From contig CAJHZI010000649.1 in NCBI GenBank assembly GCA_905160935.1, forward strand, positions 3,104,001 through 3,168,000: a DNA stretch of 64,000 nt. Direction: 5' to 3'. The DNA is from Enchytraeus crypticus. Its lineage: Eukaryota; Annelida; Clitellata; Enchytraeida; Enchytraeidae. The notes below the pieces were generated by a model. That model ran no database searches. It saw only the letters and a program-made list of their open reading frames with translations, and was not told where the DNA came from. This document shows, in pieces, positions 5,111 through 62,981 of the stretch. The position numbers and the translations under genes are program-made. Every line of letters starts with the position of its first letter. The first letter of the stretch is position 1.

Positions 5111-6822
5111 TCATAATTATATCGCTCGTCTATCCTCTACTTTCAGCACTTCCTCTAAATTACGAGCCCATAACTATAAATGGAAAATTCAGTTGCAAAA
5201 GCTCGACTCCGCTTATTTCTTTCGTCCTTCGCACTATATCAATTCATATTAGTCCCCGTCGTATTAAAATTTGCAGAAGCATCCTGGACTGGTTATAACG
5301 GATCATAGATGCTTTTTTAGCTACCAAGGCTTTGAACTTCCGAGGACATGATCTACGGTTATTTCCAAGGATATTTTATATATCTGGACTGGCTACTATT
5401 TGCCAAAGCTTGGAGCCTGCATGGTTTCTGTTTACAACTACAATAGGCCCATGCGTCACTGCTTTGTCTTTGCACGCATTGTTAGCATATACATGTAATG
5501 CGTAGAATGTACCATGTACCTATCCTATAATATACACCTGAGGTGTTTTACGATATGATAGTTGTTATATCAGGCCTATTTATAAAATACAAAAAACACT
5601 CATTATGTCTGATCAATAGAAAATCCTTGGTTGTTTTTCCTTTATTCACATTCCAAACACTCTATGTAACCTTACATAATTTTTGAGCAGTACGAAAAGA
5701 AATGCGATCTAAGATGGGTCAACATTACTTAGACGCAGATATTATCAAACATAGATTCTACATTAGGTCTAAATCTTACAGTTTCTGACTAAACAGCCTA
5801 AGAAACAAGATAAATATTGGGGCACCCATCACCCGCCCCCCGCCCTCTCTCATCCAGTCGGCCCAGGACTGGCTTTGTCCCAGCTCAGGCTATGAGGGTT
5901 TTACGAGCCGGAACGACGCTATCGACCCAGTTTTCATCAAAACTCTCCCGTGTATCTGGACGCCCTGGTAATCCTCTGCTGCTAAACGAGTCTATTTTTA
6001 TTCGGGATTGAAAAGCACCGATTTTTTAAATAAAAAGTTCGAGAAGAAGCATCATTGAATTGAAACCAACGCGTTTGGTATATCCCAGCCTAGTATACCG
6101 GATGAAGCACTAACTATTTTCTGCATACTCTTCTGCAGAAACATAAAATAACCCCGTGAAATTCCTTCATTGCATAAAGTATATTTAAGTTTTACGAAAC
6201 CATATTGACTGACCTGGGTTCAAAGCCCAGGTCAGTTAAGTAATGATGGATATCCCCTTGGGCCCATGGATGGTTAGTCGTGTATCTTAGATTGCTGCTG
6301 ATTGGAGCTATCAATAGCAAAGATATGATTAACCATGGAAAGGATTAATAATAACCTGCCAGGAACCTGTAAAGCGGTCTCGAAGACCGGACACTGGCCA
6401 TGACACCGCTATAGAAATTGTCGGAGGTTATTATTACTATTATTATTATTATTATTATTACTATTTTTATATATTTACTGTATTCATATTAATTACACTT
6501 TTTATATATTTTAAAACTTTAATAAAACTTCAAACTGAAGCACTCTATTTCTTTTTGTACTAGAAATACAAATTAATTGCCTTCCACAAATTACCAGTAG
6601 TAGTTTTATTTCGGGTTAAAATAAAAATAAAAATAGTAAATATTACAATAAAAACAATAATATTAATATAATAATAATAAATAGTAATAATGATAGTAAT
6701 AATAAATAAATCCGGTCAGGCGCCCCACACAGTGACGTCACCACTGGTCTTCCATCCTCATCTTAGAGTCCGTTTGTCTTTCAGTGTGAGGGATCAAGTA
6801 TGGATCTAAGACCCCCCAGTAG
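5111..6822. other. Non-coding region before the foldback block
   Basis: No gene was recognised. A GC-richer stretch at 5817-6011 stays open, but its translation is low-complexity and unrecognised. An 11-bp perfect hairpin lies at 6208-6236 and an ATT microsatellite at about 6423-6461. AATA-rich sequence precedes the inverted-repeat block. Confidence 0.5.
6208..6236. repeat. Perfect 11-bp hairpin
   Basis: ACTGACCTGGG (6208-6218) and CCCAGGTCAGT (6226-6236) are perfect reverse complements around a TTCAAAG loop. The shape resembles a tRNA T-arm, but no complete tRNA can be folded around it. Confidence 0.85.
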
Positions 6823-7479
6823 AATAGAGTAGTCTTACTTTCCTTAAATTGACCTTTGACCCCTAAGTGCATTAGTGAATCAAGCGCTGACCTAGTTAAT
6901 CCGCCCACACGTATGCTTGCCCGTACTAATTAGCCCGAAGTATTAGTGGATGTATGCGTCACGTGTGCACTAAAGTGGATGTTACTAATTAGCCAGAGCA
7001 ATCAGTTGAGCGATTGTCCTCGTTAAGTACGTCATGTGACAACCAGATGTTACTAATTAGCCCGATGTGAACACTTATGTGGTTGTTAGTAATTAGCCCG
7101 AAATATCAGTAGAGCAATTGTAAGTAGGTCAAACTATTTTTTGACAAACTAAATGATTCATTGTTATTAAGAGGAGCAGGGGCTTCTCACCAGATGATTC
7201 ACTATAAATATATTCAATAATTAAACTATTCATCCTGACTAAGTAGGTCAAAGTTGTAGAAAAACTGAAAATACGATTAAACTTGCATGAATCATTCATT
7301 CGCACAAATGTTTTCAATCTAATCGTCATGGCAGCTATTCAAATAAGGTATTATTTTATAACTTTTGCCTTTACTGTATTATTTTATTGTAATTCTTTTA
7401 CGAGTTACTGATCTTGTACAAATAATTTAACTGTTCGAAATAATTTGTCGCCTTTGTAATAATATTTTTATTTGTTTTA

Positions 7480-7690
7480 AACACACCTTCTTAATTTTAA
7501 ACTAGATAAAAACACACCCTCAAAGTGTTGTACTAGATAAAAACACATTCTCCTAATTCTCTAGTTGATAAAATCGCGCCCACATAATTTCAATCTTAAT
7601 AGAAACACGCCCTCATAATTTTAAACTTGATAAAAACAAATCCTAATAATTCTCAAGTTGATAAAACACACCCCCTAATTTCTAATTGAC
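7480..7690 (-). repeat. Tandem array of ~30-bp units in the left arm
   Basis: Roughly seven degenerate units on the minus strand of the form CTAGTTTAAAATTA followed by a GGGNGTGTTTTTAT-like run. The same unit is expanded at 11100-11730 in the opposite orientation. Confidence 0.7.
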
Positions 7691-7754
7691 CCGAAGAAAC
7701 AGAGCGCTCAGTAGATCATATGACTATAGCACTGAAACTTATTGTTCATAAATT

Positions 7755-7800
7755 TGTTTGATATAAAAGAGATGGCTCCCTGCACACACTATAAAAACCA
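7755..7800 (+). promoter_or_regulatory. Candidate TATA-box promoter
   Basis: TATAAAAG at 7762-7769 and TATAAAAA at 7790-7797 lie about 85-120 bases upstream of the ATG at 7881. The spacing suits a Pol II promoter with a short 5' UTR. Support is sequence only. Confidence 0.4.
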
Positions 7801-7880
7801 CAAACATTCTAACTAGAGGTCATTCGCAAAGTTACCTTCCAAAGATTCTCTATCTACAGTAGTGAAACTAACTTAGCATT

Positions 7881-8070
7881 ATGTCTACGTATCTGTCTGC
7901 TGATGACGTGGATGCTTTCGAAGAGTTCATGGCTGTTCTCAAACGCTACGAAGAGGTATGTAGAATTTTTAAATATACTTTTCAATGAATTTAAAATCAA
8001 ATTGACTATAAATTATATATAATTTTTTAACTTATAGAATTTAATATCAACCATGAATGATATAATAAAG
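7881..8070 (+). CDS. Candidate 5' exons of an unrecognised gene inside the inverted repeat
   Basis: Not recognised as any family. ATG at 7881 opens 25 codons with balanced, coding-like composition in very AT-rich surroundings, reading MSTYLSADDVDAFEEF then MAVLKRYEE, and ending at a good donor (GAG|GTATGT, 7956). A TTAACTTATAG acceptor at 8037 would start a second in-frame exon of 11 codons (8038-8070, NLISTMNDIIK) ending AAG|GTTTAA. The predicted peptide is acidic and probably helical. No later exons were found. The inner right arm keeps the exon-intron junction but has lost the promoter and start. It may be the element's own gene, a captured cellular first exon, or spurious. Confidence is low because only 36 residues are visible. 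Confidence 0.35.
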
Positions 8071-8179
8071 GTTTAATGCTTGCTTCCTTTACTATGAAGG
8101 ATAAATACTGGATAATATATTTCCTAAATATATTTAAATCTATTCGTATGTGTGACAAAATATTATTTAAAAGTTTTAG

Positions 8180-8977
8180 AAATTCTATAAGTTAAAAAAT
8201 TATATATAATTTATAGTCAATTTAATTTTAAATTCATTGAAAAGTATATTTAAAAATTCTACATACCTCTTCGTAGCGTTTGTTTTTATCTAGTTTAAAA
8301 TTAAGAAGGTGTATTTAAAGCAAATAAAAATATTATTACAAAGGCGACAAATTATTTCGAACAGTTAAATTATTTGTACAATTTTAGCAACTCGTAAAAC
8401 AATTACAATAAACTAATACTGTAAAGGCAAAAGTTATAAAATAATGCCTTATTTGAATAGCAGCCAGGACGATTAGGTTGAAAACATTTGTGCGAATGAA
8501 TGATTGATGCAAGTTTAATCGTATCTTCAGTTTTTCTACAACTTTGACCTACTTAGTCAGGATGGAATAGTTTAATTATTGAATATATTTATAGTGAATC
8601 ATCTGGTGAGAAGCCCCTGCTCCTCTTAATAACAATGAATCATTTAGTTTGTCAAAAAATAGTTTGACCTACTTACAATTGCTCTACTGATATTTTGGGG
8701 TAATTACTAACACCCACATAAGTGTTCACATCGGGCTAATTAGTAACATCTGGTTGTCACATGACGTACTTAACGAGGACAATCGCTCAACTGATTGCTC
8801 TGGCTAATTAGTAACATCCACTTTAGCAGAAGTGACGCATGCATCCACTAATACTTCGGGCTAATTAGTACGGGCAAGCATACGTGTGGGCGGATTAACT
8901 AGGTCAGCGCTTGATTCACTAATGCACTTAGGGGTCAAAGGTCAATTTAAGGAAGGTAAGACTACTCTATTCTACTA
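8180..8977 (-). repeat. Inner right inverted-repeat arm
   Basis: Near-identical reverse complement of the left arm. It runs from AAATTCTATAAG (8180) through the decayed exon junction (CCTCTTCGTAGCG), the TAATTAGCC motifs and ACTACTCTATTCTACT (ending about 8977). A deletion relative to the left arm removed the segment corresponding to 7501-7938. About 140 bases separate the two arms. Confidence 0.85.
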
Positions 8978-9947
8978 GAGTTATGCACGGAGACGACGCA
9001 TTTGGCGTTTAACTTGATAATTTACGTTTAATAACTATAACGAATGATTGAGCGCTACAGAATTGAGAGGGCATGAGGATGAGTGTTAGTGACTTGAGAG
9101 GGACCTTTGGAGGAGTGCAACATGGTTAAGAGAGGCACGAGAGATTGGTAAAATTGTTTCATGGAACGAAACTAGGGAAGAGTGGATAGCTTAGTTTGAC
9201 AAGAGAATTACGACAAAGGTAAAAACATGTTCCGATTTGGAATATAGAGTTTTAAAATACATGGAGAGAGTGAGAGAGAGAGAGAGAGAGTAAGAGAGAG
9301 TAGGAGAGAGGTAGAATTGTTTGACGGAACGTGATTATGAAAGAGAAAATAGCTTAGTTTGATATGCAAAATATGTGAAATGGTAAAATAATGTAGCAAT
9401 TTGGAAGAATGACATAAGGTAGGCTACATATTCTAGACAAATAGTGACTACGTATTTTTACATTTAAGTTACTTATTTACGTTTGTTAAATAATTATAGA
9501 TATTAGAGACTACATATTTTCTTTTAAATTGCTATTTTCCCTTTTTGTTTACATAATTATACACGCATAGACTATATATTTGCCGTTCTATTTACTTTTA
9601 CTTCACATAATTATAACCTATGGAGGAATGCTACACAATTGTGGAAAGTATGGAGACAGGTAGAGTTATACACGGAGACGACGTATTTTGCGTTTAACTT
9701 GATAATTGACTTTTAATAACTATAACGAATGAGGGAGCGCTACAGAATGGAGAGGGAATGAGGATGAGTGTTAATGACTTGAGAAGGACCTATGGAGGAG
9801 CGCAACATGGTTAAGAGAGGCACGAGAGATTGGTAAAATTGTTTCATGGAACGAAACTAGGGAAGAGTGGATAGCTTAGTTTGACAAGAAAAATTACGAT
9901 TAAGGTAAACACATGTTCCGATTTGGAAGATAGAGATTTGAGGAACA

Positions 9948-9999
<52 letters not shown>

Positions 10000-10075
10000 G
10001 AGACAGGTAGAACTGTTTACGAAAAGTGGTTATTGAAAGGAAGATAGGTAATTTTTGACATGAAAACATATGACA
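8976..10075 (+). repeat. Direct duplication with ~685-bp period
   Basis: The segment starting TAGAGTTATGCACGGAGACG (8976) recurs at 9661 as TAGAGTTATACACGGAGACG. About 330 bases are highly similar, including GGCACGAGAGATTGGTAAAA and CGAAACTAGGGAAGAGTGG. Both copies end in a GA microsatellite followed by a similar, more diverged GTAGAATTGTTT / GTAGAACTGTTT region. There is no coding signal. Confidence 0.85.
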
Positions 10076-10339
10076 ACAGTCATGTATTAATTAGGAGAAT
10101 GGCTTACCAGATGGAAGCAGGCAAGTAAAGAATGCTTAAACAATGATAAATGGGTTAAGAGATTAAATGAAGACAAAAGTGTGCATTTAGGATGAAAAGA
10201 AGTTCTGAGATGGTTTGCTAAAAGAAGGAATTAAAAGAATACAGCAGGGTTTTGGACAGAAGATTTATGTGTTATGCTGGTGCCATTAGACAGCTAAGAG
10301 ATAACAATTTAAAAAGTGTACAAGTATAGTGTAGAAAGT

Positions 10340-10643
10340 ATGCTAGTAGGAAATTTAAAATACATATATTGATGAAGAAAAGAAGGATGAGGATTGAAGA
10401 TTTAGATATTAAGGACCTGGCATTATACACTTAGGAGAAAAAAATTACAAAATAAGCATGTATAGGGCAGAAATAAGTTTACTAGGATGCGCAAGATACA
10501 TGTACATATATTGAGCTTGAAGAGTGTTGTGATTTAAGAGTTTAGTGTAATGGATCTGTTACTAGGCAGGTATAACGAAGGAATGTAGAAAAATTAAGAA
10601 AGTATGCATCTACTGGGAGGAAAAGACTGTACTAGGATGCACG

Positions 10644-10712
<69 letters not shown>

Positions 10713-11010
10713 GAAGAAATATAGAAATTTTAGTAAGTGTGCATGTAATGTGAGAAAAATACGCTAGTAGGATGTGAAAAATTCGTAGATTGAGAAGAAA
10801 CGAGGGTTGCATACTTACGATTTAGGTGCTAAGGGTCTGGCATTAGACACTTAGAGAGAAAAATTTAAGAATGTATGCAAGCAAAGGACAGAAATTATAC
10901 CTAATAGGATGCGCAAGATATATGCATTGAGCAGAAACAAGGGTTGAGATTGAAAATGTCGGTCTCATAGACCTGCCATTAGGCATATAGGGAGAAGACA
11001 GCAGCTATGA
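10340..11010. repeat. Degenerate tandem repeats with (AT)n insertion
   Basis: Recurring blocks TAGGATGCGCAAGATA, CCTGGCATTAGACACTTAG and GAAACGAGGGTTG appear at variable spacing, consistent with an old tandem array. An (AT)n run interrupts it at 10648-10709. No ORF of note. Confidence 0.6.
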
Positions 11011-11099
11011 AATAAAATGTATTTTTCACAACTATGGGGTTATGACTACAGAAATAACAACACGCTTAGGAGCATGTGGGGGAAAAGCACACTGTGTTA

Positions 11100-11730
11100 A
11101 ATTATAGCAGAGTGTTTTTATCAACTAGAATATTAAGAGGACGTATTTCTATTAAGTTTAAAATTACGAGGGCGAGATATTATCAACTAGAGAATTATAA
11201 GGATGTGCTATTACCAAGTTTAAAATTATGAGGGCGTGTTTCTATTAAGTTTAAAATTACGAGGCGTGATTTTATCATCTAGAGAATTATGAGGATGGGT
11301 TTTTTACCAAGTCTAAAATTATGAAGGTGTGTTTAAATAAACTAAACTTATTATGAGGACATGTTTTTAACTAGTACAACATTAGGAGGGCGTGTCTTTA
11401 TCAAGTTTAAAATTACAAGGGTATGTTTAAATCAACTAAAATAAGTACGAGGACGTGTTTTTTCAACTAAAAAGGTATGATGACGTGTTTTTATAAAGTT
11501 TCAAATTAAGAAGACACACTTTTAAAACGTTTAAAACTATGAAGAAGTGAATTTATCAACTAGGGAATTATGAGGATGGGTTGTTTATCAAGTTTATAAT
11601 TATCAGGGCGTTTTTTATATCAAGTTTAAAGTTACGAGGGTTTGTTTACTTCAACTACAATAATTATGAGGACGTGTTTTTATCTAGTTTAAAATTACGA
11701 GGGTGTGTTTAAATCCACTAAAAATATTAT
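11100..11730 (+). repeat. Expanded ~30-bp tandem array in the outer right arm
   Basis: About twenty degenerate units of the type TTTTTATCAAGTTTAAAATT plus ACGAGGGCGTG. Homologous to the shorter array at 7480-7690 but inverted relative to it, so array length differs between arms. Confidence 0.75.
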
Positions 11731-11739
11731 TATAAAGGG

Positions 11740-12375
11740 GACAAATTATTTGTGACAGTTAAATTATTTATACAAGTTCTGCAACTCGTAAAATAATAAC
11801 TTATTATAAAATAATGCAGTAAAGGCAAAAGTTATAAAATAATCACTTATTTGAATAGCAGCCATGTCGATTAGGTAGAAAACTTATGTGTGAATGAATG
11901 ATTGATGCAAGTTAACATTGCAAGTTAACTCGCATTTTCAGTTTTTCTGTAACTTTGACCTAATTAGTCAGGATGAAATAGTTTACTAAATTATTATATT
12001 TAGAGTGAATCATCTGGTGAGAACCACCTGCTCCTCTCAATAACAAGAAATCATTTAGTTTGTCAAAAACTAGCTTGACCTACTTACAATTGTTCTACTA
12101 ATACTTCGGGCTAATTAGTAACATCCACTTAAGTGTTCACATCGGCCTAATTGGTAACATCTTGTTGTCACATGACCTGCTGAGTGAGTGCTCTACTGAT
12201 TCTACGGACTAATTAGTAACATCCAACATTTACTTAAGTGGTAAAATCACATGACACACACAAGAGCTCTACTAATACTTCGGACTAATTAGTACAGGTA
12301 AGCATGTGTGTGGGCGAATTAACTAGGTCAGCGCGTAACGCACTAATGCATTTAGGAGCTCAATATCAAATGTGT
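11740..12375 (-). repeat. Outer right inverted-repeat arm
   Basis: Diverged reverse-complement copy of the left arm. Shared landmarks are ACAAATTATTTGTGACAG-like sequence, GAATCATCTGGTGAGAA, several CTAATTAGTAACATC motifs, and GCGAATTAACTAGGTCAGCG near the end. It has the same orientation as the inner right arm. Confidence 0.8.
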
Positions 12376-12539
12376 GGAAGTGCCGGCCATTATACTGCTA
12401 CTCACCCCGAATGTGGCCACGAAATCTGCAAGAGTATCACAACAAAACCATTCGACTGATCTGGCCGTTTAGGCATGACCGCTGACCATTGTAGCTTATA
12501 GTAGAAATTGAAGACAGAAAGTCTTCACGCTTCAGAACT

Positions 12540-13707: not shown

Positions 13708-14475
13708 TTACGGCGCACAAGCATAGTCTAAAAGCCGCGGATTAGAGAAACTCGGACTAGAGCGCTGAATGTGCATTAGTTTAGGTGCACTTAATGAAAA
13801 GCGAAGGATTGTCAAAGCATCATGAGCGGCTAGCGACTTCAAGCGCGATGCTGTACGTTTGAGATCCTCCAAGCGACTAGATAAAGCGGTGGTAGTAGCT
13901 TCTTCTCCAGAGAGTGGCGCGCCGAGTAGAGAACTAAGGGAGAGGCCCATTGGCACAAAGTATGACAAAACTGAGTTGCCCGGAGATTTGCAAACTGATG
14001 ATATGACTTCGCACTTGGTACGATTCAACTGAAGCCCAAATTCTTGGCCTCTGTCGATGATAGTCCGTACATCATTTGCAATCGACGACTCGCAACCACC
14101 TAGAGTAATGTCATCTAGGTAACCCGCCGTGAGAGCGCTAGAGAGAGAATTAAGGAGAGGGTGAATAGCCAAGCAAAACAGCATGGACCCTAAGGGATCC
14201 CCTTGTTGGACTCCTTCCTGTGACTCAATGCACCAGTCTCCGAACTTCAACCACGAAGGGCTTGAGTAAGCTAGATGGCAGAAACTATTCAGCTCTGATA
14301 TCCTGTGATGAATTTCGCTGAGCATTCGTGATCTACTCAAGTAATTAAAGGCATTACAGAAGTCTAGCTTTACCACGAAGTGATCAGCTGGCATTGACTC
14401 AGCGAAACGGCGAGTTGCGTGAACAGCTGCCTCACAGCCACCTGGAATACCAGCTCCAAGTTGAATTGGGCTCAA
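13708..14475 (-). pseudogene. LINE reverse transcriptase core
   Basis: About 255 codons open. RT motifs in order: QLGAGIPGGCEAAVHATRR; VVKLDFCNAFNYLSR (motif A, catalytic Asp); EGVQQGDPLGSMLFCLAIHP (motif B); GYLDDITLGG (motif C, the catalytic YxDD); then CEVISS near motif D. The reading frame is cut from the upstream part by an in-frame TAA just before LSPIQLG (about 14475) and by a frameshift further up. Confidence 0.85.
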
Positions 14476-14575: not shown

Positions 14576-15217
14576 TTATTGAGAGCAAAAGAGTTTACCA
14601 CCAAACAGCACCGGTTGGACCTTAGTGGGGCAAACACCTCTAAGCAGGAGATTCACGAAAGAAGTCAGAGCGGTCAAAAATGTCCCAGCTGACTCTCTAC
14701 AAGTCACAAGCTCCAGAAGATGCTGAGGGCGAAGGCCATCAGGACCACCGTCTGAGCCTGCTGGAAAGCTACGTACAGCTTTGACAACATCCTGCTCTGA
14801 GACTTGAATGGGCGGAGTCTCCATTGAGTCCGGAAGGTGTGCCATTATACTGCTACTAGCTGCGGGTGGGTGCTTGGCCGTCGGGATATTGAAAGTGTTT
14901 AAATTACATTGCGCTGGGCTTTCGTCTGAATAGAGGATGCGTACAGCTGCTGAAACATTTCCATCTTCCATTTTGGACCTGACTGCTGAGGCACGGGAGT
15001 CATGAGAACGATGAGCTCTTTTAATTCTATCTACGACCGGCTCAGTTGGAGCACCAGTACCTAGGCCCTCCAAACTTTTCTTAATTAACGAGCTTAGATT
15101 TTGCCTTTTACCTGTGCGAGCAGGGACTTGCAAAACTGAAGATGCGAAAAGCAATAAATCTGACCAGTATGATAAAACTGAGGGATCGCTTTCGATCTTA
15201 CGGAAGGCATCAGTCAA
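14576..15217 (-). pseudogene. LINE 5' segment of the RT protein
   Basis: Open segment containing VVKAVRSFPAGSDGGPDGLR, the typical entry to the RT domain in this LINE group (SFPxGSxxGPDGLRPQHL). It ends prematurely at LFGGKLFCSQ. An extra T in a run of four near 14589 shifts the frame, since the downstream frame resumes KKSGGIRPIAVGYIGRR. The 5' end is truncated by the ATT microsatellite. Confidence 0.75.
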
Positions 15218-24660: not shown

Positions 24661-25262
24661 ATCCCTGTGATATAATCTATGATACAATCTATGATACGAT
24701 CTATGATATAATTTATGATACAATATATGATGCAATCTATGATACAATCTAGAATAAAATCTGTGCCATAATCTATGATATAGTCCATACTATAATATAT
24801 GATACAATTATGAAAAAATCAGTGGTTATTCTGTGATACAATCTGTGCTACAATCTACGATACAATCTATGATATAATTTATGATACACTCTATGCTACA
24901 ATCTATGATATTTTCTATGATATAATCTATGATACAGTCTATGATACAATCTATGATACAATCTATGATATTTTCTATGATATAATCAATGATACAGTCT
25001 ATGATTTAATCATAGATTTATGATAAAATCCTTGATGCAATCTTTGACGCAATCTATGATATAATCTATGACACAATATGTGTTACAATCTATGATTTAA
25101 TCGATGATATAATCTATGATACTGTTTATAATATACTCAATGATACAGTTTATGATACTATCTATGATATAATGTATGATAAAGTATATGATACAATCTA
25201 TGATACTATTTAAGATATAATCTGAGATAATCCATAATACAATCTATGATACAATCTCTAGG
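24661..25262. repeat. 12-bp minisatellite, ~600 bp
   Basis: About fifty degenerate units of the form ATCTATGATACA (variants with TATA, TTTA and similar). Units drift gradually, so the array is old. No gene overlaps it. Confidence 0.92.
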
Positions 25263-31850: not shown

Positions 31851-32553
31851 ACATAGATAGCTATTTTTTACTGATATTCTTCTTGAAATATTCTAATATT
31901 ATTAGTCGTCACGGTTTTGGCTGTTTAGCGATACTTTTCAATTAGTAATTTTAAAATTGAAAAAGTGCGTAATTTTAGTGACAAAATATTGATTATTTAA
32001 CACTCTACTCTGAATTAGCGTTTTGTTATACAGTCAATGGAAAGTTGGAAATAATGATAATATTCATAGCTTGTATGTAGATTGCACTTCACATTGAAAT
32101 AATATCATGTTAAATACCTCCTATAATACATGTCTAAGATATGACTAACATAAACATTTCAGATGTAGGTTTCAGGTACACTTTAATATTTATAATTACT
32201 GGCCTGCTTAATTTCATTTGGGTTACCCAATAAGAACTTTCATTATTTTTCTATTTTTGCAAGTTTCAATATTTTGTGTTAATTTGAGCTTTACAATTTT
32301 GATTTGTTTACAATTCTAACAAAATAAAGCAAATGTAAAGGCATTCCACTCTGCTTCTTGCACGTGTGGTGAATATGTAAGCCTTGGGATTATGCGTATA
32401 CTTATACATTGTAGGCCTAGTTTGCATTAGCATTTTCATACCATTCAGCAGTGCATATTTATAAGGTTTTCAAATTAATACATATAACAGTTCGGCGAAA
32501 TTTCCTATCACGACCACTGTCAATCTCTGTACTCGCATTACTTTTATTTTCAG

Positions 32554-33602
32554 GCTATGGTCACAGCACGCCTAAGACAGCGGCCGGTAAGATATTCTGC
32601 ATGCTCTACGCTATGGCAGGCATTCCACTCAACCTCGTCATGTTCCAGTCGCTCGGCGATAGAATGAACGCTCTGGCCACTCATATCGTTCGATCAATCA
32701 AGAAATGCTTTCACTTTAGAAACGTTGGCGTCTCGCAGACGTTTCTAATCATCATCTCCACGCACATGTCCGCCATCGTTTTGTTCGGCGGCGCTTGGGC
32801 ATTCAGCAGTTACGAGCTCTGGTCCTATCTCGACTCGATCTACTACTGCGTCATTACGCTCACCACTGTAGGATTCGGCGATTTCGTGGCTCTACAGAAG
32901 AATCAGATGCTGCAGAAACAAACCGGATACGTAACATTTAGCATATTCTTCATCTTGTTCGGTTTAACTGTCGTTTCGTCAGCCATGAATCTACTGGTGC
33001 TGCGGTTTCTTACTATGAACACAGTCGATCAGAGGCGAGATGAACGACTAGCAGCTATTCGTCGCTCCACCATACAGCTGGCCAGTGGTATCATGTCCAT
33101 CAACGGAGGAGGAATGCTGCCTATGGGAGCTGTGCTACCTCAAGGCACCTCGTTCCAATCTAGTGGAGTAGGCACCTCGTTCCAAGCTAGTGGAGTTACC
33201 ACTAGAACGGCCAAGCTCAGCACTACATCTGCTTCATTTGCTTCAACTGCTTTTGCTGAGTTGGAAGAAGAGAAGAAAAGCTTTTCCTTTGATCCAGTCT
33301 GCCTTTGCTGCGCCTCACTTTGCGGATTAGAGAGGCGGCAGCGGTATCGGGTGACGAGACCTCCTGTGGACACAGTTGATCGACTGCTGGAGCTCGGTGT
33401 ATCCTCTGAGCTCTCCAGTCCTCATGGAAGTCGTGGAGGTCTTCTAGACAAATCTACTTCTCATGGAGTTACACAACGAAATGAGTGCTTCCGTCAACCA
33501 TGGCAAGAGAACAGTATTCAGATGAGAATATTTGGAGCCAGTCCTCCGCCTGTGAATCGTCGCGCCTCCAGTGCTGAGAGATCGGCTCGCTACTCGTTCT
33601 AG
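32554..33602 (+). CDS. TASK-type two-pore-domain potassium channel, last coding exon (partial gene)
   Basis: Potassium leak channel of the plasma membrane, setting resting potential. The exon starts after TTTTATTTTCAG, completing the first Gly codon of the filter GYGH; this P1-filter intron position is conserved in K2P genes. The ~349 residues contain filter 1 (GYGH, with the His that senses external pH in TASK channels), an M2 block ending LVMFQSLGDRMN, M3, pore 2 with ITLTTVGFGDFVALQ, and M4 ending in VLRFLTMN, close to the TASK gate motif VLRFMT. The cytosolic tail has an imperfect repeat (GTSFQSSGV/GTSFQASGV), a Cys cluster CLCCASLC, and a C-terminal RRASS resembling a kinase or 14-3-3 site. 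Exon 1 (M1, cap, P1 helix) was not found. The ATG at 32451 is intronic. TASK subgroup is well supported; orthology to KCNK3 or KCNK9 is not resolvable. Confidence 0.92.
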
Positions 33603-59531: not shown

Positions 59532-62500
59532 TAAAGAGAGTGAGAGATATGCCTGCTTACTCTTGACTATTATTCGCAGGAAATTTACATTTCGCTTACG
59601 TCATGCAGTCTGATGATCAGGTGGGGGCGGGTAATCTGATGTATAGATGTAATCTTATCAACACACTGGACAACTCAAGATCTATATCCCTGTCATTCAC
59701 TTCACTACAGGTCGTGGGTCCCGCAGGTTAGTGCTCGATGTTGTCATGATGGACAGCTCTCATAAGCGTGTTAATAACGATTAAACTCTAATTGCGTGCT
59801 ATTGTTGTTAGATGACTTTTATTTTCTTGGTGTCTCAGAAGCTACTTGCAGGCCTAGATGCGTGTTTTTGATCAAAAATACTTCAGAGAGTGTTTTCATT
59901 ACTTTATATTCAACTGGTTTTTAGATCATTTGTATCTCCATTCTTTTCAGACTCTTTTTCTTCGTCCTTTGGTTTTGGCTTCATATTGCTTAATGTTTTT
60001 ATAATAAAACTTTTATATTATATTTGAGTAACTTTAGTGTTTGTTATGGAACAATAGTTGCTCCTAGTAATTATAAGTATATAAGCCTGCTTTGGTATGC
60101 ATTGGGTTTGAATCATCGATAACTGCTAGTTTTTAGAAAGCATTTTTAAAGCACATCTTTGAAACTATTTTGGAAATTTGCACTTTTCCTTTTTTCATTT
60201 GTAAACTAAATCTATCGATACGTAGTAGGCAACCATATAAAATATAATTAAACTCGCTATTATTAATCTGTATGCGTGCATCCTGCTTTTAATATCATGT
60301 CTTCGTCACCAAGGCGTTGTTATTACATTAATATTAAACTGTTAAATTTAATGAACCAAATCTAGCACGTACACAAATATTATGAAAACTGAAATCCCTA
60401 TATTCCATTCATGATTCACGTGTACTTTTTGTGTGTGTGACAAACAAATTGTTCGCAGTGTTATCAATCAATGCAGAGATTCGTTTACTATGATTTACTC
60501 AAATTCTTGTTGGTCCACAAAGGAGTTCATCGATAAACATGAAAGAATGTAGACCAAGTAATTTACCATAATTGTCAAACAATGCAATAATATTTGTCTA
60601 CCAGGTTAAGTTTATGAAACTTTGGTATTACTTTTCTTACGCGATTCACAAATAAGTTAATCTCTAAATTCATAATTTATGATATTTCAACTGATCCAGT
60701 CCTTTATTCCCTTTATGTCTGGAAGCACTCTAGGCTAAATTTAACTATAAATGCATTCTCTCTCAGTGTTTCTGTGTACCTCCCAGTTAGTCAGTGTATC
60801 TCTCTGTATGTGCTTCACTCATTTTCATGCTAGGGGTTTCAAAGTTTTATTCTCCGTTTTGAATCATAACTGTCGAGTTTAACTCCGGTTTCCTATCCCA
60901 CAAAATCAATGTGTGGCAGGACGGGCCCTGGATGTAATTTTTACACCTGCTAATCCGCAGTGGGTCACCTAACCATATGCGACCAGCTCAGCCTGAATTA
61001 TGTAACGTCTGAATCAAACACTTTACCATAATAATTTCGAATTAGAAATTTATTATCATCATCATTAGAATCTTTCTTTGAATTCTTATTTAAATAAGGT
61101 CGGATTGGACAATTTTTTAGAAATTTCTAGAGCTTGGATTTTTCTCAATTTTGTTCGATGTTGTCCTGGACTTCAGTAATACTCTAATTATTGTTATTGC
61201 ATTTAACAGTTTCGAATCAAGAATTAACTGCAGTCTTTGTTACTCCTTCTCCAGTTACTGGATTGACGGGTGGAAAAGTCACCTTGCGGTGTTTCTTTGG
61301 AGGAAGGTAGGCAATTAAACCGTTACAGAGGTGTAACCTTCAATATTACATTTAGTAAAAACTATTATTTTATGTCTTCAATTTTAGTATATCGATTACG
61401 ATATATTTAGGTCTATTTGAATGTGTTATATAATTTTTTTGTAAATTGTTTGGCGTTTACTCTTCTAGAAATTAATTGTGCAATTATATTTATTAATTAT
61501 AGACAGTATTTGTGCTGTTAAAGTGTATTTCATTTCGCGGCACATAAATCACAAATAATAATTTGTAATAATAATAATAATTTGTAATAATAATAATACA
61601 ATAATTATAGTATTATTATTATACAATAATTTATATAATTGTCCACAGGCCTGATATAGGAATCAGCTGGAGAAGGGCTGACGGAAAGACGATGATAGGA
61701 AGTCGCTTTGTTACTGGAAACCCTATTTCCGATTCCGGATGGTTGACTATTAATGCTCTACAGCTGGATGACGCCGGAAGTTATGTTTGCTTTGGACGCT
61801 CGGACACCGCCCCTCCTCTCTCCGTTGAGAGAACAATAGAGCTCAAAGTTGAAGGTTTCGGTTTATAATTTCTCCTTACTTTGTTTTGCTGGAACACAAA
61901 TAACTGCTTCTGAATGTACCAGCTCTTCTATGTGAGTGTACATATTGTGAATGTACACAATATAAAAATTTGTGTACAGGCCTACACAATGTTAATCCAT
62001 ACATTAGATAAAGAACATGAACGTAAACTATTTTATTAACCGGTATTTAGAGTAATTAATCCGGGCACAGTACTAATGTCATGAATTCTAGTATCGATTA
62101 ATTAAAAAAAATTTGAACGCACTCTTAACCAAAAAACAAAAGTTGATTTTAATCTCAACTGGACAGTATCACGTGCGATATCACGTGTGGTATCAAGTGT
62201 GGTATAACGTATGGTGTCACGTGTGGTATCATGTGTGATATAACGTGTAATATCACGTGTGATATCACGTGTGATATCACGTGTGATATCACGTGTGATA
62301 TCACGTGTGATATCACGTGTGATATCACGTGTGGTATCACGTGTGGTATCACATGTGATATCACGTGTGGTATCACACGTGATATCACATGTGATACCAC
62401 ACGTGATATTACGTGTGATATCACGTGTGGTATCACCTATGGTATCATGTGTAATATAACGTGTGGTATCACGTTTGAGATCACGTGCGGTATCACGTTT

Positions 62501-62981
62501 GATATCAAGTGTCGTATCACGTTTCGCATGTAGAGGATATTAAACTTACCTTTTTCTCTTACTTACATGTATTAAGTTATCTGCATTAATGTTTATTTCG
62601 ATTCCGTGCTTTAAAATTCACCCAATCATCGAACAAGTTGAATTCATCATATTGCATGCCAATTTTTCAAAAATTAATATAAAAGTTATAAAATAAAATT
62701 GTCATATGATATATGTTATATATTCCTATGCTTATATGACTGTCATTGATTGATAATTTTTTTATTAAGTACGTGTCTTATTTCGTAGTTCACTGACTGG
62801 TTAAATTTCACAGTTTATCTAAATTCTAATTTTTCAGCCTCTCCATACTTTAAGGACTCAGTGCAAGCTCCAAGAAATGTCGATGGAACTAGAGGAAGAA
62901 GTTTGACGATCAACTGCAACGCCACGGCTGTTCCTGAAGTTAGCCAAATTACCTGGTATCGAAACGGCGTTGAAATTACAA
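56529..62981 (+). CDS. L1CAM/neuroglian-family cell adhesion receptor, 5' part (Ig domains 1-4)
   Basis: Neural-type Ig superfamily adhesion receptor, secretory and then plasma membrane. Coding exons: 56529-56610, 57111-57213, 58244-58614, 59580-59726, 61210-61306, 61649-61854, 62838-62981; phases agree, giving 383 residues before the last visible donor. A signal peptide (MKLFALISLNVVAALSS) precedes Ig1 (LNLYCLASG ... EGYYQCKAKNDFGTAVS, a typical L1/contactin first-domain signature), Ig2 (FVMPCNTTG ... IDEQGNLHFAYVMQSDD ... LMYRCNLIN), Ig3 (VTLRCFFGG ... LDDAGSYVCFGR) and the first half of Ig4 (ASPYFKDSV ... LTINCNATA ... ITWYRNGVEIT). The VE-ASPYF join matches the L1-family domain 3-4 boundary. 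Later Ig and fibronectin III domains, transmembrane segment and tail lie beyond the window. A contactin cannot be excluded. The ATG fits the signal peptide. Confidence 0.92.
57291..57541 (+). mobile_element. SINE family B, copy 1 (tRNA-derived)
   Basis: A-box-like TAGCGCAATGG (57300-57310) and B box GGTTTGAATCC (57376-57386) give a good Pol III promoter. The 3' body is AGTAAAATCTTGGACATTCA, GACTGGTTATACGGAAAATG and GTGGTATTAAAAGTGATAGA, ending in an ATT tail. Lies in intron 2 of the L1-like gene. Confidence 0.85.
57728..57880 (-). mobile_element. Dispersed repeat family D, copy 3
   Basis: CTGTCATCCATGACAACATC, AATTGCAAGCCGGTGAACAA, TTCCAAAATCCAGAATTCAA and GGAATTAAAGAAAAGGAGGT, closely matching 35755-35905. 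Lies in intron 2 of the L1-like gene. Confidence 0.65.
59460..59530 (+). repeat. RTE-like 3' end fused to (GA)n
   Basis: CATGGATCTACCACTTGGCA, GAACACTT, then a GA tract to 59527. It sits about 50 bases before exon 4 of the L1-like gene (59580). Confidence 0.6.
59733..59767 (+). mobile_element. Family D 3'-end fragment
   Basis: GTGCTCGATGTTGTCATGAT followed by a GGACAGCTCT end matches the minus-strand reading of family D, immediately downstream of the exon 4 donor. Confidence 0.35.
60872..60995 (-). mobile_element. SINE family A-related, divergent copy
   Basis: CGAGTTTAACTCCGGTTTCC tail complement, GGCAGGACGGGCCC block and CCAGCTCAGCC end, aligning with the divergent copy at 4978-5110. Confidence 0.45.
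61052..61145 (+). mobile_element. ATC-headed repeat, diverged fragment
   Basis: ATTATCATCATCATTAGAAT head, CTTTGAATTCTTATTTAAAT, AAGGTCGGATTGGACA and AATTTCTAGAGCTTGGA follow the order of family C with many substitutions. A family D-like end (TTCGATGTTGTCCTGGA) follows near 61155. Confidence 0.4.
62163..62526. repeat. 12-bp CACGTG minisatellite in intron 6 of the L1-like gene
   Basis: About thirty units of GATATCACGTGT with T/G/A variants. Each good unit contains the palindromes GATATC and CACGTG. Because 12 is divisible by 3, all frames stay open and give artefact peptides. Confidence 0.95.

Follow-up and report, generated by a model that had tools for sequence, protein, structure and literature searches.

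Vertebrate Mavericks and the Galileo element of Drosophila mojavensis are the described systems closest to the locus considered here, a 5.6-kb fold-back element in the genome of the annelid Enchytraeus crypticus. In the part of the source article drawn on here, vertebrate Mavericks have 6-bp target-site duplications (TSDs), ends of the (AGT)2//(ACT)2 type, terminal repeats of 46-1447 bp, and element sizes of 12.7-24.6 kb (PMC8097293). The Discussion of the Galileo article proposes that TIR1-F1-F1-TIR2 structures (TIR, terminal inverted repeat) arise by the copying of one end onto the other, and the portion of that article used here mentions inverted-repeat expansion in Polintons as reported earlier, with Jurka 2007 among the sources (PMC3573991). 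The window that we analysed is a stretch of 64,000 nucleotides (assembly GCA_905160935.1, contig CAJHZI010000649.1, positions 3,104,001 to 3,168,000 of the forward strand), and the element occupies window positions 6818-12402, with the termini AGTAG...CTACT. It is a non-autonomous, rearranged Polinton/Maverick copy, and thus a variant within an already known kind of element.

Self-comparison of the window shows one arm three times, once forward (6818-8042) and twice inverted (8180-8976 and 11112-12402), which bears out the description in the initial annotation of the locus; that annotation had also placed the element correctly, with limits (6823-12375) slightly narrower than the true span. The inverted matches between arm 1 (6818-7520) and arm 2 (8275-8976) have identities of 94-99% from piece to piece, and 7940-8042 matches 8180-8282 inverted at 99%. 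For arm 3 (11112-12402), identity is 82-90% outside the array, in the pieces listed, and 71-88% inside it. Arm divergence in the window copy is 3.4%, and the arms are of unequal length. A 31-bp unit is repeated 6.6 times in arm 1 and 19.2 times in arm 3, close to the 7 and 20 units first estimated, and arm 2 keeps a remnant of 38 bp, about one unit, where the repeat finder called no array. The window copy has no integrase or transposase, no ATPase and no protease gene, and no long frame, just a piece resembling a first exon; the earlier remark that no transposase was recognisable holds for the whole of 6818-12402.

Copies elsewhere, gene content and insertion sites

The genome searched comprises 524 Mb in 802 contigs. 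Arm 1 has at least 41 matches in it, from scoring 40 of 255 first-look candidates, and inverted arm pairs, spaced 5.9-14.3 kb apart, occur on nine further contigs. In the longer copies (8-14 kb), open reading frames lie between the paired arms, so that coding copies, for which the initial annotation had advised a search, are present elsewhere in the genome, with an integrase rather than a P-type transposase. The arms can be firmly assigned to a Polinton/Maverick family with many copies, whose terminal repeats they are: in longer copies they enclose an integrase, a chromodomain, an A32/IVa2-like ATPase and a putative adenain-like protease, and they come with 6-bp TSDs and AGTAG ends. The Pfam matches are pooled over several sister copies, and no single copy shows all of them: they are the integrase (rve, 38.3 bits, cut-off 32.6) and its chromodomain (Chromo, 39.8 bits, cut-off 25.1), the packaging ATPase (Pox_A32, 23.9 bits, cut-off 22.8; Adeno_IVa2, 21.5 bits, cut-off 21), and the adenain-like protease, for which Peptidase_C5 (E-value 9e-4, 19.4 bits) falls under its cut-off of 21.3. 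In copy C115, no family matched the pieces that correspond to the ATPase and the protease. In a search of PHROGs, the integrase alone matched, to four families, three of them named transposase, and neither a P-type nor a MULE-type transposase had a match in the sister-copy pieces scanned, which gave the rve integrase instead. The window copy resembles other non-autonomous transposon copies in having no genes of its own, and its ends, if they are still functional, could be recognised by the integrase of the family.

Some observations weigh against this assignment. No polymerase family was matched in the pieces scanned; the longer copies do have a putative polymerase-like region, judged by its motifs only. 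No capsid family was matched either, and a 448-aa frame in the capsid position had no useful match in Pfam or among PDB sequences. When this capsid-side frame and two pieces of the polymerase region were searched against PDB sequences, one weak, irrelevant match was returned, and a piece of the polymerase region had no relative by tblastn against phages or in a scan of viral contigs. In the window copy, the TSD agrees at five of six bases and is C-rich.

Target-site duplications were found at five or six of six bases in 14 of the 18 both-ended copies examined, the window copy included. They are exact in C188, C435, C601, C323, C622, C713 and C794, exact in C377 though within a simple repeat, and exact in C212 once the changed outermost base of its known terminus is allowed; five of six bases agree in the window copy, C593, C368, C746 and C625. 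Neither C115 nor C202 has a TSD, and C710 and C115b were left out of the test, their right ends being truncated or outside the fetched piece. The first scan tolerated shifts of up to 25 bases; its top rows for C377 and C212 were internal sites, and the rows at the termini were used for these two copies. The test was then repeated at fixed termini. There, the two flanks of the same copy agree at five or six bases in 14 of 15 copies, as against 2 of 210 pairings between copies. The copies begin with AGTA and finish with TACT, apart from the one changed base of C212. Of 15 copies, 7 have AGTAGT at each end, and the remainder differ at one base or more, the window copy having AGTAGA and AGTAGC. 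The ends and duplications that the initial annotation had left to be defined are thus AGTAG...CTACT and a 6-bp TSD matching at five of six bases.

When the flanks of the window element are joined without it (200 nt), they align at no fewer than 38 other genomic places (40 of 78 candidates scored), and every one of these 38 matches crosses the join, at 80-87% identity. The window element is therefore one insertion in a dispersed repeat. With its many genomic copies, TSD and empty sites, it qualifies as a fold-back mobile element, as had been supposed.

Several further observations concern the genes of this family and of other elements. The integrase at L031:5037-6089 has a likeness to IS481 transposases as well, with an NCBIfam score of 53.2 bits that falls far short of the cut-off of 224. 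At the R end of C115 (L009:1054-1455), the first inward frame carries PC4 (p15), a single-stranded-DNA-binding domain (E-value 9.8e-15, 54.2 bits, cut-off 25). DNA_pol_B_2 (PF03175) has at least 206 matches in the genome (79 of 475 candidates scored), and many of the listed matches fall within open frames 1350-1420 codons long, which suggests that this genome also houses other polymerase-B elements in a less decayed state.

End types and anatomy of the window copy

From the polymerase-side (L) end, the family begins with the terminal repeat, the 31-bp array and a segment with the probable first exon; the polymerase-like region, the ATPase and the integrase follow, and then the capsid-side frames and the protease before the R end. 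The R end is a terminal repeat without an array. In a third type of end, R', 684-bp tandem units come first, then a stretch that lacks long frames, and a long array precedes the terminal repeat. The 31-bp arrays, placed between the terminal repeat and the first gene, may be binding sites of element proteins. The inner part of the terminal repeat splits the ends into two classes, L with R' on one side and R on the other: mean identities are 87.0% (L-L), 90.0% (R'-R'), 87.8% (L-R') and 88.9% (R-R) within classes, and 81.8% (L-R) and 83.5% (R-R') across them.

We typed 19 both-ended elements, namely 18 fetched copies and the window copy, a non-random choice from the search matches and not a census. 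Eight are L/R, three L/R' and three R'/R' (C377, C746, C368); C593 is L/L, C202 is R/R, C794 and C661 could not be assigned, and the window copy combines L, an inverted L and R'. The L/R' count includes C212 as R'-like/L, which was moved there from L/L because its left end groups with the R' ends. For the right end of C622 and the left ends of C368 and C212, typing used the array and repeat similarity alone. Depending on the comparison, matches shorter than 80 bp or 120 bp were dropped before counting; the anatomy comparison left aside non-array matches shorter than 90 bp as well as any that a better match overlapped, and runs of N in L029 and L034 were left out of the reading.

In the window copy (Table 1), the segment specific to the L end, at 7690..8042, has at least 40 genome matches (40 of 68 candidates scored), and its content is read as a putative promoter and first exon. 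The fold-back junction lies at about 8039-8045, and arm 2 stops precisely at an element terminus, 8976. The R' interior at 8977..10072 has 38 genome matches (27 of 27 candidates scored). The terminal repeat of arm 3 is nearest to that of C661 and, in two of three blocks, of C368.

Table 1. Features of the fold-back element and its insertion site, in window positions.
Feature	Position	Strand	Basis or remark
Left 6-bp TSD copy, CCCCCC	6812..6817	.	5/6 bases equal to 12403-12408
Terminal inverted repeat, arm 1, L type (polymerase-side end)	6818..7479	+	Genome-wide copies, end typing
31-bp tandem array of arm 1, 6.6 units	7479..7685	+	Repeat analysis
L-end-specific segment: TATA-like sequence, ATG at 7881, short putative first exon with GT at 7956	7690..8042	+	Sequence reading
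Continuation of arm 2 past the stop point of arm 1	8039..8180	-	Inverted match to next-inward segment of longer copies
Arm 2, second inverted L end; about 1 array unit, counterpart of ~7520-7940 missing	8180..8976	-	
R' interior, 684-bp tandem units, 1.6 copies	8977..10072	+	
R' interior segment without long frames	9901..11105	+	Common to C435, C244, C661, C377, C746 and others
31-bp array of arm 3, 19.2 units	11112..11711	-	
Terminal inverted repeat, arm 3, R' type	11710..12402	-	End typing
Right 6-bp TSD copy, CACCCC	12403..12408	.	

Other irregular arrangements occur around sister copies. In C710 (L032:3410-3760 and 3870 on), an oppositely oriented fragment of the terminal repeat lies about 90-110 bp outside the L end of another copy, and the two are another rearranged pair of neighbours. 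The host flanks of C115 (L009:40-392, L010:6254-6586) are mutually inverted for about 350 bp, without a TSD, and are a host palindrome or a larger inverted duplication.

Elsewhere in the window, a remnant of a reverse-transcriptase gene adjoins the element on the minus strand (13708-14475 and 14576-15217; RVT_1, 1e-12, in the first stretch only). A fragment of an ion channel gene with two Ion_trans_2 stretches (1.6e-21) lies at 32451-33602, in keeping with an animal host though no proof of one, and 12-bp minisatellites of about 50 and 30 copies lie at 24668-25257 and 62167-62522. An Rfam search of the window matched nothing.

Origin of the same-end structures

On balance, we think it probable that the window copy goes back to an integrated L...R' copy, a second copy nested in it in the opposite orientation, a deletion joining the insides of the two L ends, and gene conversion. 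The integrase of the family would have inserted the L...R' copy, and a second copy would then have entered the 684-bp repeats at the R' end of the first. This proposed nested insertion would account for the exact terminus at 8976, where the following bases (AGAGTT) are unlike those before 6818 and the terminus is joined to R' interior. A deletion would have joined the two L ends where 4-7 bases match, around 8039-8045: the matches at this junction overlap by four bases (8039-8042), and on one reading the similarity of the arms extends to about 8045. Parts of the arms would afterwards have been homogenised by gene conversion between them. Substitutions between arms 1 and 2 are patchy, with none at arm positions 301-452 and 13 of the 24 at 453-596, and over block 450-662 arm 1 shares 95.3% identity with C115b as against 93.4% with arm 2, the pattern expected if two source copies had been partly converted.

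Other features speak against this history. In two other blocks, arms 1 and 2 are closest to each other (96.9 and 99.3%, as against at most 96.0% for any other typed end), and this mutual closeness also fits a duplication of one end. In addition, the left TSD copy expected of a nested second insertion is absent and would have been deleted, so it falls to the exact terminus to argue for nesting.

A different origin is suggested by the sister copies C593 and C202. In C593, the arms differ by 15 substitutions over 1.22 kb, 14 of which lie in the outer 257 bp, and the next 953 bp are identical; the probability that 14 of 15 fall in the first 300 bp, a limit set once the data had been seen, is 3.4e-8. 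Because divergence lies almost wholly in the outer part and the TSD is mutated (5/6), the insertion of C593 looks older than its inner arms. In C202, differences number 38 in 300 outer positions and 5 in 340 inner ones, and the inner part is of the R class. From these patterns, C593 and C202 probably reached their same-end state when one terminal repeat was repaired by inward copying of the element's other end. In a control of eight other copies, the outer 300 bp of the repeat hold fewer differences than its remainder in six; the control repeats were compared over 600-670 bp, and none has a long difference-free inner part as in C593. Some results do not fit a uniform account: two of these eight controls, which are not fold-backs, have an outer surplus (C622, 52 vs. 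38; C794, 15 vs. 6), and the R'/R' copies C746, C377 and C368 show no such step, their arms differing by 0.7-5.2% per block. In addition, part of the outer divergence of C202 may be decay, since its left terminus is lost and it has no TSD.

Since they have no comparable step, C746, C377 and C368 may have been palindromic at integration. It is conceivable, though we consider it unlikely, that these R'/R' copies, and perhaps also the L/L portion of the window copy, began as defective genomes, made by snap-back during protein-primed extrachromosomal replication and then integrated. For the window copy itself, this would mean a strand switch near the L end during protein-primed replication of a free linear element, after which the palindrome was joined to an R' fragment and integrated, and we regard such an origin as a little less credible still. 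The end of arm 2 exactly at a terminus does resemble a run-off copy of a linear molecule, the composite is a single insertion, as its outer TSD and the empty sites show, and the R'/R' copies are alike along their whole arms, with TSDs of 5/6 to 6/6. Against it stand the patchiness of the window arms, with one block of arm 1 nearer to another copy than to arm 2, and the signs in C593 and C202 of copying that started from the terminal repeat, the divergence step of C593 being an argument against snap-back in that copy. No extrachromosomal form was seen either, although no search aimed at one was made.

In-place gap repair, primed by the terminal repeat, with a broken end copying the other end inward, is the same process proposed for Galileo in the section of that article used here (PMC3573991), and the steps in C593 and C202 favor it. 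As the origin of the window copy, it appears doubtful, and slightly more so than a strand switch: arm 2 stops at the very terminus, what follows at 8977 is R' interior and not host flank, and in-place copying explains this poorly because copying from an integrated template should run into host DNA. An assembly artefact or an ordinary unique segmental inversion is highly improbable. Near-identical inverted repeats are indeed prone to misassembly, but the dispersed copies, TSDs, empty sites, unequal arm lengths and 3.4% arm divergence speak against both, and a unique inversion without other copies, the outcome that the initial annotation had set against its own reading, is ruled out by the copies of the arm throughout the genome. 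A Foldback/Galileo-like element of the P or MULE superfamily, which that annotation had proposed and which long inverted repeats with variable tandem arrays might recall, can be practically discounted, as the longer copies carry a retroviral-type integrase with a chromodomain, adenovirus- and poxvirus-like genes, 6-bp TSDs and AGTAG ends, leaving a likeness in fold-back form only.

Comparison with known systems

To our knowledge, whether Polintons replicate as free linear genomes, and how short copies originate from them, are unsettled questions. Because its ends can be recognised, its arms dated and its same-end fold-backs sorted into several kinds, the present family allows chromosomal repair and strand switching in free replication to be separated by sequence. 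C593 and C202 point to terminal repeats repaired from each other, so that the mechanism proposed for Galileo becomes visible here as a divergence step. If some of the same-end palindromes did originate by snap-back, the genome would thereby provide evidence that Polintons replicate in this host as free linear molecules. Palindromic derivatives are known for protein-primed linear DNAs, including derivatives of the yeast plasmid pGKL1 and defective genomes of adenovirus. Like these, the copies described here have an inverted duplication of the same end; the pGKL1 and adenovirus palindromes, however, are free molecules, whereas ours are integrated copies, two of which were probably formed by another route. 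Among the records listed by literature searches, no paper on such free palindromic derivatives was identified. In titles and the openings of abstracts of the records listed, same-end fold-back Polintons were not met either, which does not show that they are absent from print.

The Foldback-like label is appropriate in structure, in that long inverted repeats hold tandem subrepeats, and the resemblance is one of form only. As far as the part of the source used here describes it, Galileo of D. mojavensis likewise has long terminal repeats with variable internal tandem arrays, yet unlike this family it has a P-superfamily transposase (PMC3573991). The copying mechanism for Galileo is a proposal there (PMC3573991), whereas in this family a divergence step is seen in two copies, C593 and C202.

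The likeness to vertebrate Mavericks, again judged by the portion of the article drawn on, extends to the 6-bp TSD, an equal or close end motif, and a repeat length within the published range, as well as to the retroviral-type integrase, the ATPase and the putative protease, and several copies come near the published sizes (PMC8097293). Compared with the elements described in that portion (PMC8097293), the window copy differs in being 5.6 kb long, in lacking those genes, and in having the L end twice, and the family as a whole differs in having an additional, array-rich type of end, R'.

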